From positions 1 to 64,000 of the forward strand of contig CACPKQ010000002.1 in assembly GCA_902634455.1 (NCBI GenBank): a stretch of DNA of 64,000 nucleotides, read 5' to 3'. This document shows positions 8,101 through 11,443 of the stretch, in pieces. Every line of letters starts with the position of its first letter. Within the stretch, counting starts at the first letter, position 1. A model generated the notes under the pieces. That model worked only from the letters and a program-made list of their open reading frames with translations. It was not told the DNA's origin and ran no database searches. A program made the translations under genes and the position numbers. Source of the DNA: an uncultured Pelagibacteraceae bacterium. GTDB lineage: Bacteria; Pseudomonadota; Alphaproteobacteria; Pelagibacterales; Pelagibacteraceae.

Positions 8101-8790
8101 TTATCTTCTTAGCAAGTTTATAATTTTTTTAATTCTAGATTTTTTTAAAGAAAGTTTTGATATCATTAAACAAGCTTGTGATTTTAAAATTTCACCATCC
8201 TTTAAAATTCTTAAATTATTAGCTTTTAATGTTGATCCTGTGCTTGTTATATCTGATATAATTTCTGCTGTTCCTGTAAATGGAGCTACTTCAGTACTTC
8301 CTAAGCTTTTGACCAATTGAAATTGGGTAACACCTTTTGAAAACAAAAATTGCCTTGTTAAATTTGGATACTTTGTTGCAACTCTTAAAAGTTTTTTTTT
8401 CTTTTTTTTAAACTCATCTGCCACTTCATCTAAATCTAATAAAGTTTGAACATCTATCCAAAAATCTGGGATTGCTAGTACTAAATTTGCATTTCCAAAA
8501 TTATACCTTTTATTGATTAAAATTTTATTTTGTACATTAACTTCGCTCTCTTTAAATAAATCATATCCAGAAAAACCAATATCAATGTTGCCCAACGATA
8601 ATTGTTCAATACACTCTCTAGCATGTAAATAAATAATTTTAACATTTGGAAGTTTTTTAATATATCCAAATAAATCTCTTTCTCCTCTTTCAGAAAAAAG
8701 ATTTAATTTATTTTTTTTAAAAATATTAATCGTATCATGTTTTAATCTTCCTTTTGATGGAAGCCCTATATTAATAATATTTTCAATCAT
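8101..8790 (-). CDS. hisG: ATP phosphoribosyltransferase, short-form catalytic subunit
   Basis: First enzyme of histidine synthesis, joining ATP and PRPP. At 229 residues it is the short HisG form, which lacks the C-terminal His-binding domain and needs HisZ. GLPSKGRL near the N-terminus, GNIDIGFSGYDLF and the PRPP-type loop GTAEIISDITSTGSTL (about 173-188) are characteristic. It overlaps the hisZ end by 8 bases, fitting translational coupling of the two subunits. It is last in the tRNA-His, hisS, hisZ, hisG run, so any upstream His-responsive leader would also control it. Confidence 0.95.
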   Translation of the reverse strand: MIENIINIGLPSKGRLKHDTINIFKKNKLNLFSERGERDLFGYIKKLPNVKIIYLHARECIEQLSLGNIDIGFSGYDLFKESEVNVQNKILINKRYNFGNANLVLAIPDFWIDVQTLLDLDEVADEFKKKKKKLLRVATKYPNLTRQFLFSKGVTQFQLVKSLGSTEVAPFTGTAEIISDITSTGSTLKANNLRILKDGEILKSQACLMISKLSLKKSRIKKIINLLRR

Positions 8791-9832
8791 ATAAATTCAT
8801 GTTTACCGCAGCACCTACTGCAGAAACTTTTCTAAATCCTAAATTAGCTGTCAAATGATCATATCTTCCTCCTGATATGAAGTTCTTAAATTTCGATTTT
8901 ATTTTGACTTCAACTGAAAAAATCATTGAACTATAAAATTCAACTTCCCTTCCATTATAAGCAGAAAATTCTACTTTAAAATTTTTATTTTTAATTAAAG
9001 GAAAAAAACCTTTTCCAACAACTATATTAATTCCATTTTCTTTAAAAAAAGAATTTAAAATTTTTGGTGCTTTTTCTAATGGACATTTTATTTTTAAAAA
9101 TCGCTTTATTATATTTGTATTTTTTTTTCCTGTTGAAGTTTTTCTTGGATCTTTAATTTTCATATTAAATCTATCCAAAATTTCTTTGTAAGTTCTTCCT
9201 GCAATAATTTTATTTTTATCTTCCTTTTTCATTTTTTGATATATCGATTTATCTGTTGCAACAAAAATTGGATCTATATCTGAATTTGTTTCTAATCTTT
9301 TTAATAGTTCATTAAAATAATTTTTATTCCAATAATACTTTTTAAGTCTATTTTTCCATCTTCTTGGAATATCTAATTTTTCGATTAATAAATTAAACAA
9401 TTCAATGTTTCCTATTTTTAAAGCTCCTTTTTTAAAATTGCTATTTTTTAAAATTTTTACGGCCGTATCAATAATCTCTTTGTCATCTTTCTGTTTATTT
9501 TTAGAACCTAAAATTTCATATCCTATTTGATTTTTTATAATACTATCTTTTTTTTGGTAAGTTTTTCTGAAAGCTTCACCACTATAATAAACTTTTTCTC
9601 TATTATCTTTCTTATTTTGAATAAATCTTATTACTGATGAAATTGTAAGATCTGGTCTTAAACAAAGTTCTTTTCCATTAAGATCATAAAATGAAAATAA
9701 AAATTTTTTTAAATTCTCACCTGATCTTTGAAGAATATATTTAGTCTCAATAACTGGATCTAGCGTAATATTATTAAAACCCCTAGACTTAATAGATCTA
9801 AGAATTTTTTCAGATAATTTTTTTGATTTCAT
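8783..9832 (-). CDS. hisZ: ATP phosphoribosyltransferase regulatory subunit
   Basis: HisRS-like paralog (349 residues) that forms a complex with short HisG and carries histidine feedback control; it does not charge tRNA. Class II synthetase-like blocks are seen: LDPVIETKYILQRSGE, LCLRPDLTISSVIRFIQ (motif-2-like) and SGGRYDHLTANLG at the C-terminus. It lacks the anticodon-binding domain found in the neighbouring hisS. It overlaps hisS by 23 bases and hisG by 8 bases, so all three are probably one transcript. Confidence 0.9.
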   Translation of the reverse strand: MKSKKLSEKILRSIKSRGFNNITLDPVIETKYILQRSGENLKKFLFSFYDLNGKELCLRPDLTISSVIRFIQNKKDNREKVYYSGEAFRKTYQKKDSIIKNQIGYEILGSKNKQKDDKEIIDTAVKILKNSNFKKGALKIGNIELFNLLIEKLDIPRRWKNRLKKYYWNKNYFNELLKRLETNSDIDPIFVATDKSIYQKMKKEDKNKIIAGRTYKEILDRFNMKIKDPRKTSTGKKNTNIIKRFLKIKCPLEKAPKILNSFFKENGINIVVGKGFFPLIKNKNFKVEFSAYNGREVEFYSSMIFSVEVKIKSKFKNFISGGRYDHLTANLGFRKVSAVGAAVNMNLYD

Positions 9833-11144
9833 TGACTAAATTTTCAATTTTTACAGATGATTCATCTCCTGTTTTAAGATTTCTTAATTTAACTTCAGAT
9901 TTTTTTACCTCATCACTGCCATAAAAAATTACGCAAGAAGATTTTATTTTATTCGCATATTCCATTTGTTTTTTTAATTTACCTTCTCCTGGGTAAATCT
10001 CCGAACTTATATTGGATAATCTAAGTTTGTTTAATATTTCAACATATTGTTTGATATTATTTTGATCAAACACACATATAACCACTGGCCTCGTAACTTT
10101 TATATTAAAATTCTTTTTTTGCATTAAAGCAAATACAAGTCTATCTAAACCGATTGATATTCCAGTTGCTGGATAATCAAGATTTCCAAAGTTTCCAACA
10201 AGATTGTCATATCTACCGCCTCCACCTATTGAACCAAATTGAATAGTTTGTCCTTTTATATTTTTTACTTCAAAGTTTAAATTAACCTCAAAAATCGGCC
10301 CTGTATAATATTCTAGGCCTCGTATTACCGATGGATCAAATTTATAATTTTTAAAATTATAAGCTTCAAATATTTTGGTAATTTCTAAAATATCTTCGCT
10401 ATCAGGCGTGTCTATCTTTAAAGCATTTTCTATTCCTTTAATCTGTTCTTTTTTTAGGTTTGCACCTTTTGTAAAATCTCCCGATTTGTCTTTCCTTCCT
10501 TCGCCTAACAGTTTTTGTGCTTCACTCCAACCAAGTCTATCAATTTTATCGAGAGCACGAAGAGTAATTGATATCTGTTCTTTTGATTTAATATCTAATT
10601 TTTTAAATAATTTATCTGTGAATTTTCTAGAAGAAATTTTTAAAGTATAATCTGCTTTATTTAATCCACATCTTTCTAATATCTCAGATATTAAAATACA
10701 AAGTTCAGCATCAGCTTGCAAATTTTTTGTACCTACATAGTCTGCATCGAATTGAAGAAATTCTCTATACCTTCCAGGTCCTGGTTTTTCATTTCTCCAA
10801 ACTGTACCTAGCTGATATCGTTTAAAAGGTTTTGGAATTTCATTAAAATTCTTAGCAACATATCTTGCTAATGGAGCTGTTAGGTCATATCTGAGTGATA
10901 ACCATTTGTTCTCATCTTTAAATGAAAAAACTCCTTCTCCTGGCCTATCTTTATCAGGCAAAAATTTGCCAATACTTTCTGTATACTCAAAACTAGGTGT
11001 TTCAAGATATTGAAAACCATAATTGATCATAACTTCTTTAATTTTAGAAATTACAAAATCTCTAATTAATAGTTCTTTTTCTTTTCTATCTTCAAAACCT
11101 GAGGGTAATTCCTTTGAAGGTTTTATTTTTTTTTCTTTTTCCAT
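9810..11144 (-). CDS. hisS: Histidyl-tRNA synthetase
   Basis: Class II aminoacyl-tRNA synthetase, 444 residues from the Met used here. Motif 1 region (YGFQYLETPSFEYTESIGK), motif 2 (FKRYQLGTVWRNEKPGPGRYREFLQFDAD), the HisA motif RGLEYYTGPIFE, GGGGRYDNLVG and motif 3 (GISIGLDRL) are all present, followed by the anticodon-binding domain. The frame is open 66 bases further upstream but that part lies in tRNA-His; ATG 11142-11144, just after the tRNA, gives the normal MEKEKK-IKPSKELPSGFED beginning. It lies 4 bases downstream of the CCA end of tRNA-His, so enzyme and substrate are probably co-transcribed. Confidence 0.96.
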   Translation of the reverse strand: MEKEKKIKPSKELPSGFEDRKEKELLIRDFVISKIKEVMINYGFQYLETPSFEYTESIGKFLPDKDRPGEGVFSFKDENKWLSLRYDLTAPLARYVAKNFNEIPKPFKRYQLGTVWRNEKPGPGRYREFLQFDADYVGTKNLQADAELCILISEILERCGLNKADYTLKISSRKFTDKLFKKLDIKSKEQISITLRALDKIDRLGWSEAQKLLGEGRKDKSGDFTKGANLKKEQIKGIENALKIDTPDSEDILEITKIFEAYNFKNYKFDPSVIRGLEYYTGPIFEVNLNFEVKNIKGQTIQFGSIGGGGRYDNLVGNFGNLDYPATGISIGLDRLVFALMQKKNFNIKVTRPVVICVFDQNNIKQYVEILNKLRLSNISSEIYPGEGKLKKQMEYANKIKSSCVIFYGSDEVKKSEVKLRNLKTGDESSVKIENLVNEIKKII

Positions 11145-11148
11145 TTTT

Positions 11149-11225
11149 TGGTACACGGGGACAGATTCGAACTGTCGACCTTCGGTTCCACAAACCGCTG
11201 CTCTAACCAACTGAGCTACCCGTGC
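11149..11225 (-). tRNA. tRNA-His (GUG)
   Basis: A 77-nt cloverleaf with CCA encoded. Acceptor GCACGGG pairs with CCCGTGT (one G-U), the D-stem is GCTC/GAGC, the anticodon loop TTGTGGA carries GUG, and the T-arm is GACAG-TTCGAAT-CTGTC. The anticodon stem has a G27-A43 mismatch. The base before G1 is A, so no G-1 is encoded, and the discriminator is A73. This matches the unusual alphaproteobacterial tRNA-His identity rather than the G-1/C73 rule of other bacteria. It lies directly upstream of hisS on the same strand. Confidence 0.95.
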
Positions 11226-11276
11226 TCCTAACTTTGTTTTATACTAATTGTGTTTAACTTTAAATTTATAAAATAA

Positions 11277-11351
11277 TTAAATTGCTAGCGTGCAGCCAGC
11301 ATGAAAATGATGTCTGTGTGAATTTACTGATACTTTAACTTTCTTAATCAT
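11277..11351 (-). CDS. Putative histidine leader peptide (24 codons)
   Basis: A short frame from ATG 11349-11351 to TAA 11277-11279. It reads MIKKVKV, then SVNSHRHHFHAGC, then TLAI. Codons 12-17 are His-Arg-His-His-Phe-His, so four of six are histidine (CAC, CAT, CAT, CAT). It sits upstream of tRNA-His, hisS, hisZ and hisG on the same strand. A GC-rich hairpin begins at the last His codon. His-rich short ORFs ahead of his genes are the classic sign of ribosome-mediated attenuation. There is no clear Shine-Dalgarno, and the peptide is too short to judge by coding statistics, so the role is inferred from composition and position. Confidence 0.6.
   Translation of the reverse strand: MIKKVKVSVNSHRHHFHAGCTLAI
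11283..11301 (-). promoter_or_regulatory. Candidate attenuator hairpin overlapping the His-rich leader ORF
   Basis: On the minus strand TGCTGGC and GCTAGCA pair over 7 bp (one G-U) around a 5-base loop, TGCAC. This is the most GC-rich spot in an otherwise A+T-rich spacer. The 5' arm starts at the last base of the fourth His codon and the 3' arm ends at codon 23. The following bases are U-rich but interrupted by A (ATTTAATTATTTTAT), a weak intrinsic-terminator tail. A ribosome stalled on the His codons would cover the 5' arm, which suggests readthrough when charged tRNA-His is scarce. Confidence 0.45.
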
Positions 11352-11395
11352 CGTGAGTTAAATAACACTTATTTTTATAAATGCAAGTGAGTTTA

Positions 11396-11443
11396 TGTAT
11401 AGGAAATAAAAAGCCTTATAGTTGCTTTTTATATCCCTATACA
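11396..11443 (-). terminator. Extended hairpin, probable terminator after the cold-shock gene
   Basis: Two stacked perfect stems: an outer 8-bp stem (TGTATAGG with CCTATACA) and an inner 9-bp stem (ATAAAAAGC with GCTTTTTAT), separated by a small internal loop and closed by a 9-base loop. The inner arm supplies a T-run in either direction, so it could work bidirectionally. It begins about 20 bases past the cold-shock stop codon and separates that gene from the His leader unit. A small structured RNA is an alternative reading. Confidence 0.6.

Follow-up and report, generated by a model that had tools for sequence, protein, structure and literature searches.

The window analysed here, a stretch of 64,000 nucleotides, is from Pelagibacter (SAR11), and on its minus strand the order of features is hisD, infA, tRNA-Phe, a cold-shock gene, a hairpin, a short leader, a second hairpin, tRNA-His, hisS, hisZ and hisG (Table 1). 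The hairpin in front of the leader is probably the 3' end of the upstream cold-shock gene. A sequence-only reading had placed tRNA-His, hisS, hisZ and hisG behind the leader on the same strand, and all four were found there, hisZ at the score level indicated in the table. The hisS ATG is located 4 nt 3' of the CCA end of tRNA-His (window positions 11142-11149, minus strand), so that tRNA 3' processing would make the hisS mRNA nearly leaderless. In 20 Pelagibacter loci (L031, L033, L034, L046, L087, L088 and 14 others) ARAGORN reported no tRNA-His just 3' of the hairpin. The first four of these carry at that place a tRNA-like sequence with a GUG anticodon and a T-arm (GTAGGAGCGTAACCTAC) without the usual TTCRA loop, and the sequence missed by ARAGORN is possibly a divergent tRNA-His.

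Table 1. Positions of the leader, its hairpin and neighbouring features in the window
Feature	Position	Strand	Remark
Hairpin 3' of cold-shock gene, TGTATAGG...CCTATACA	11396..11443	-	U-run terminators instead in some relatives
Putative -35 box TTGCAT, leader promoter	11381..11386	-	TTG at -35 to -33 conserved
Putative -10 box TATTTA, leader promoter	11359..11364	-	predicted start at most about 5 nt from ATG
Leader ORF, MIKKVKVSVNSHRHHFHAGCTLAI, then stop	11277..11351	-	kept in 185/185 Pelagibacter loci
Sensor codons H-R-H-H-F-H	11301..11318	-	His positions vary almost only CAT/CAC
Covarying 7-bp hairpin, TGCTGGC-tgcac-GCTAGCA	11283..11301	-	about -9.3 kcal/mol
AU-rich hairpin tail (ATTTAATTATTTTATAAATT...), ORF stop codon inside	11250..11282	-	5 U among first 8 nt
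Putative second -10 box TATAAA, between hairpin and tRNA-His	11238..11243	-	conserved TAGTATAAAAC / TAATATAAAA block
tRNA-His (GUG)	11149..11225	-	
hisS, histidyl-tRNA synthetase	9810..11144	-	
hisZ, ATP phosphoribosyltransferase regulatory subunit	8783..9832	-	best-scoring model HisZ, under curated cut-off
hisG, ATP phosphoribosyltransferase	8101..8790	-	

The 24-codon frame with four His among six codons that had been pointed out before is present and reads, on the minus strand, ATG ATT AAG AAA GTT AAA GTA TCA GTA AAT TCA CAC AGA CAT CAT TTT CAT GCT GGC TGC ACG CTA GCA ATT TAA, the His codons being located at 11316-11318, 11310-11312, 11307-11309 and 11301-11303. The hairpin begins with the T of the last CAT codon (stem TGCTGGC/GCTAGCA). 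Its 7 bp and its start at the last His codon agree with the earlier description, but the hairpin does not follow the ORF as had been stated; it sits within it, and the stop codon is found closely 3' of the hairpin. Coding words of the type H-x-H-H-x-H occur just 9 times in the 1.09-Mb genome; apart from the leader, one is part of a long ORF and the others belong to short stop-to-stop frames, and no HAG-type hairpin ending was noticed at these other short frames. When the window was scanned, the leader at 11277-11351 was the sole combination of leader-like ORF and hairpin, and no leaders for other amino acids were detected in the window plus 400 kb of a Pelagibacter genome by a strict-rule scan whose rule misses leaders with two His.

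Conservation of the leader within and beyond the genus

Regions upstream of hisS were studied in three partly overlapping samples, none of them chosen by leader presence, namely 25 members of the genus (sample 1), 80 out of 141 hisS-bearing genomes, each at least 88% complete (sample 2), and 80 named loci (sample 3). The sequence-only reading had staked itself on conservation of the frame among relatives, and a leader ORF is present in 185/185 Pelagibacter hisS upstream regions, including 80/80 in the sample of genomes at least 88% complete; a few leaders (e.g., L044, L046, L114, L134) were missed by the automatic rule and recognised by eye. The 165 distinct sequences form five groups by hairpin type, which are group A with the window (..HRHHFHAG..), group B (..VHSHFHAG, then stop), group C (..THRxCFHSL, then stop), group D (..HSHRVHARLLLS and ..AKHHFAHARLLLS, each followed by a stop) and a mixed group E. 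The number of His among the final six codons ranges from 1 to 4; it is usually 3 or 4, and in group C usually 2 (e.g., STHRLCFHSL). Because the anchor was defined as CAT or CAC, the last codon is always one of these two. At codon -3, group A has CAT in 42 cases, CAC in 21 and CAA in 1, codon -4 of group B is CAC (13), CAT (11) or AGA (2), and codon -5 of group C is CAT (15) or CAC (12), with one CGT and one AAT. The third base of the His codons switches almost only between T and C and the amino acid rarely changes. The N-terminal part of the leader is under weak constraint, with a crude synonymous rate that is clearly above the nonsynonymous rate in groups A, C and D and only just above it in group B, and the ATG and the open frame are retained in every group.

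In 184/185 loci a stem of at least 5 bp was found whose start lies at -2 to 0 nt relative to the 3' end of the last His codon. The remaining locus, L244, has a comparable stem in which one pair is mismatched, as judged by reading the sequence. Hairpins of -6 kcal/mol or below occur at this position in 98% of the loci versus 0.46% of shuffled segments. There are 23 distinct stems, with versions that include GCTGGC/GCTAGC, GCTAAGC/GCTTAGC, AGCC/GGCT, AGCTG/CAGCT, GGCT/AGCC, GCAAGC/GCTTGC and GGTAGC/GCTATC, and positions 0 to +5 have all changed on both sides. Alignment across relatives had been proposed as a check, and in it the His codons are kept and an RNA hairpin near them is backed by compensatory changes. 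What persists in the genus is a coding leader, the identity of its His residues and a hairpin that covaries and keeps its place at the last His codon. Because of this conservation, the CAT/CAC wobble and the compensatory stem changes, the core idea of the earlier reading is strongly supported, namely that tRNA-His-hisS-hisZ-hisG is preceded by a conserved leader with His codons as the sensor, in which a hairpin sits at the last of these codons and the multi-hairpin layout is lacking.

In L136 and L035 hisS is only about 46% identical to that of the window (9810-11225 compared), yet leader and hairpin are of the same type. The genus seems to hold markedly different pairs of hisS and tRNA-His.

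Among 29 loci of more distant relatives there was one clear further case, from the same family: L247, which represents a different genus, has the leader HTHHHTHAKHGLGN, followed by a stop, and retains hairpin and tRNA-His. A different His leader was also detected in 23/23 loci of the sister family (e.g., MFKFKHHHYHI or MIVFTHHHIHI, each before a stop), where it is followed by a stem of variable sequence and stands directly before hisS with no tRNA-His between. Sister-family loci (L008-L030) have in addition a conserved ACCCC(C)T run and then a T-rich or TA stretch a few nt past the stem. No comparable leader was found in 28 loci of other alphaproteobacteria, where a few His-containing frames occur without such a context, so that, as far as this sample goes, the device seems restricted to the order.

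Promoter-like boxes, hairpin tails and alternative pairings

When upstream sequences were aligned at the ATG, TTG at -35 to -33 and TAA at -13 to -11 were common to 157 distinct sequences. The spacing of these boxes fits a sigma-70 promoter with a start at most about 5 nt from the ATG, from which we infer that the leader mRNA is leaderless or nearly so. Between hairpin and tRNA-His, a block ending in TAGTATAAAAC or TAATATAAAA is located just 5' of tRNA-His in most loci and farther off where sequence has been inserted. This TATAAAA block looks like a promoter of tRNA-His itself, in which case the leader would control only transcription from the upstream promoter and a basal supply of tRNA-His and hisS would be kept. 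An earlier remark had concerned a loop that contains the very tRNA that it senses. Such a tRNA-His is indeed encoded downstream on the same strand, but the conserved TATAAAA box between hairpin and tRNA suggests that tRNA-His is only partly within the feedback loop. Just 5' of this box, a perfect DnaA-box-like TTATCCACA is seen in L005, L032, L154 and similar loci; in other species it has decayed to ATCCACA or less.

As a comparison set for terminators, nine convergent gene pairs only, from a 400-kb sample of a Pelagibacter genome, were used, of which 4/9 showed clear terminators of -16 to -19 kcal/mol with mostly U-rich tails. With -5 to -10 kcal/mol, the leader hairpin is weaker than those terminators. 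The U fraction in the 8 nt after the stem amounted to 0.56 in group A, 0.74 in group C and 0.55 in group E, in contrast to 0.38 in group B and 0.33 in group D (background 0.33). The hairpin as a terminator, proposed from the sequence at first reading, has the tails of groups A, C and E in its favour and its weakness and the tails of groups B and D against it. In group A, that of the window, a modest intrinsic terminator is plausible; a mechanism common to every group could not depend on a U-tract and might, for example, act by pausing.

A second hairpin, over the His codons, is strong in group D and in some group C loci only, and it resembles a pause hairpin. Examples are CACTCT-cac-AGAGTG and CATTCT-cac-AGAATG, found in group D (L189, L216) and in group C loci with ..AACAGATTGCACGCAATCTGTT...

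It is conceivable that the leader senses histidine while its hairpin is a pause or processing element instead of a terminator. A ribosome stalled at the last His codon would then prevent pausing at the hairpin, Rho-dependent termination where the AU-rich stretch is not translated, or cleavage by an RNase, and the outcome would be a changed amount of tRNA-His-hisSZG RNA. Such a role would fit the hairpins that groups B and D keep without a U-rich tail, the pause-like second hairpin and the position of hisS 4 nt past the tRNA 3' end, which means that the mRNA must be cut from the tRNA; however, tails of groups A, C and E are U-rich as an intrinsic terminator requires, and we consider this explanation rather unlikely.

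No antiterminator was found, as the duplex energy between the 5' arm and upstream sequence was no better than for shuffled sequences in the five groups, and mean pairing probabilities revealed no helix competing for the 5' arm. This favours direct masking of the hairpin by a stalled ribosome. With one hairpin and no antiterminator pairing found, the layout differs from the multi-hairpin enterobacterial form, just as had been noted beforehand. Long-range pairing between the ATG region (AUGAUUAA) and the tail (UUAAUCAU) surpassed that with shuffled tails in groups A and E; it is not claimed here because tails taken from fellow group members gave nearly as good results and because it is absent from groups B and D.

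Competing explanations and proposed working of the leader

If the ORF is real, translation might be arrested by the nascent peptide or by free histidine and not by codon-specific starvation. In its favour, Arg and Phe beside His are also conserved in several groups (H-R-x-x-F-H) and group C has two His only, but the one residue common to all groups is His; in group D the last His follows V, M or A and the residues are ordered differently (HSHRVHA, AKHHFAHA), and the sister family has HHHYHI, which makes this explanation improbable. Even less credit can be given to the idea that only a DNA or RNA hairpin or an operator palindrome is conserved and that the His codons are a by-product. The hairpin sequence does overlap the end of the ORF, but this idea is contradicted by the CAT/CAC pattern, as the His codons, mostly outside the hairpin, vary between CAT and CAC and rarely change the amino acid; furthermore, ATG and open frame are retained in all groups and both arms shift to unrelated sequences, unlike an operator. 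A chance ORF without function, although short ORFs are common, is refuted for practical purposes by its conservation in 185/185 loci together with a covarying hairpin and promoter-like boxes.

We therefore favour, with a probability of about 0.6, a compact ribosome-mediated histidine attenuator of tRNA-His-hisS-hisZ-hisG. RNA polymerase would start at or just 5' of the leader ATG, as judged from the promoter-like boxes, and a ribosome would initiate on the leaderless leader mRNA. With His-tRNA charged, the ribosome would clear the His codons and exit at the stop in or just past the hairpin, whereupon the hairpin could form and would stop or slow RNA polymerase ahead of tRNA-His and hisS. When charged His-tRNA is scarce, the ribosome would stall on the His codons and, at the last one, would cover the 5' arm, so that no hairpin forms and transcription proceeds into tRNA-His, hisS, hisZ and hisG. 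From the arrangement of codons and stem we infer that ribosomes stall, that they mask the hairpin and that RNA polymerase otherwise terminates or pauses there. An antiterminator would be unnecessary in this scheme, and the second promoter-like box probably adds a basal supply of tRNA-His and hisS. Against the attenuator we count the weak hairpin, the tails of groups B and D without U enrichment, the two sensor His in some species (group C) and the promoter-like box 3' of the hairpin as a possible bypass. The full combination, in which a minimal leaderless attenuator works without an antiterminator, a stalled ribosome masks the hairpin and the unit includes the sensed tRNA-His, all in an abundant, genome-streamlined marine lineage, is put forward more tentatively, at slightly worse than even odds.

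Relation to known systems and meaning for SAR11

His-rich leader peptides control the his operons of enterobacteria by attenuation, and the antiterminator is a defining feature of this classical form. Like the enterobacterial his attenuator (HisL, RF00514), the SAR11 leader is a short ORF with clustered His before genes of the His pathway, with a hairpin downstream and proposed readthrough on starvation. In contrast to HisL, it has one hairpin that overlaps the last His codon, is predicted to be leaderless, has no antiterminator pairing found, is directed at tRNA-His-hisS-hisZ-hisG and not at a large his operon, and does not keep its U-tail genus-wide. Nor does it have an Rfam match: the covariance model of the His_leader (RF00514) gave no match in the window at E up to 10, and searches of Rfam at gathering and permissive thresholds (E up to 10) returned only tRNAs, one sub-threshold match to cspA and one to a snoRNA. 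The hisS T-box riboswitch of Firmicutes likewise couples charging of tRNA-His to hisS expression; unlike the SAR11 leader, a T-box binds the tRNA directly, and the T-box covariance model had no match in the window.

In Bacillus, His-leader attenuators precede hisS*/hisZ (Naville and Gautheret, 2010; PMC2965389), and in other Firmicutes his genes have His leaders with terminator and antiterminator hairpins (PMC9413887). In these cases, too, a His leader peptide controls a histidyl-tRNA synthetase paralogue, hisZ or his genes; however, the hosts are unrelated and, in the parts of these reports considered here, no tRNA gene is described in the regulated unit (PMC2965389, PMC9413887). Mycobacteria possess leaderless polycysteine short ORFs (Canestrari et al., 2020, cited in PMC9031893), which resemble the SAR11 leader in being leaderless (as predicted for SAR11) and in a run of codons for one amino acid that slows ribosomes when this amino acid is scarce and regulates the genes behind; they differ in that they sense cysteine, belong to unrelated bacteria and are described as acting on downstream translation (PMC9031893). 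In the SAR11 leader, the codons for one amino acid, His, are clustered and partly consecutive. A covarying hairpin tied to the last sensor codon is, to our knowledge, absent from mycobacterial polycysteine ORFs. A survey of structured RNAs in Pelagibacter (PMC2704228) does not mention hisS, histidine or tRNA-His, and no report of such a leader in SAR11 was found in the literature searched. The best reading is a working like that of a his attenuator, the unusual points being one hairpin that overlaps the sensor codons, a predicted leaderless mRNA and no antiterminator found.

SAR11 bacteria (Pelagibacter) are among the most abundant marine bacteria; they possess few transcription factors, and their genomes are strongly streamlined. 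The leader probably switches on the genes for making, carrying and loading histidine when histidine is short. If this is true, an amino-acid sensor fits into about 75 nt, in which ORF and hairpin overlap and the promoter probably borders directly on the start codon, a tRNA gene is placed inside an operon controlled by a leader peptide, and the large set of natural variants makes masking of the hairpin directly testable. Biosynthesis of histidine and charging of its tRNA would then be regulated with almost no DNA.
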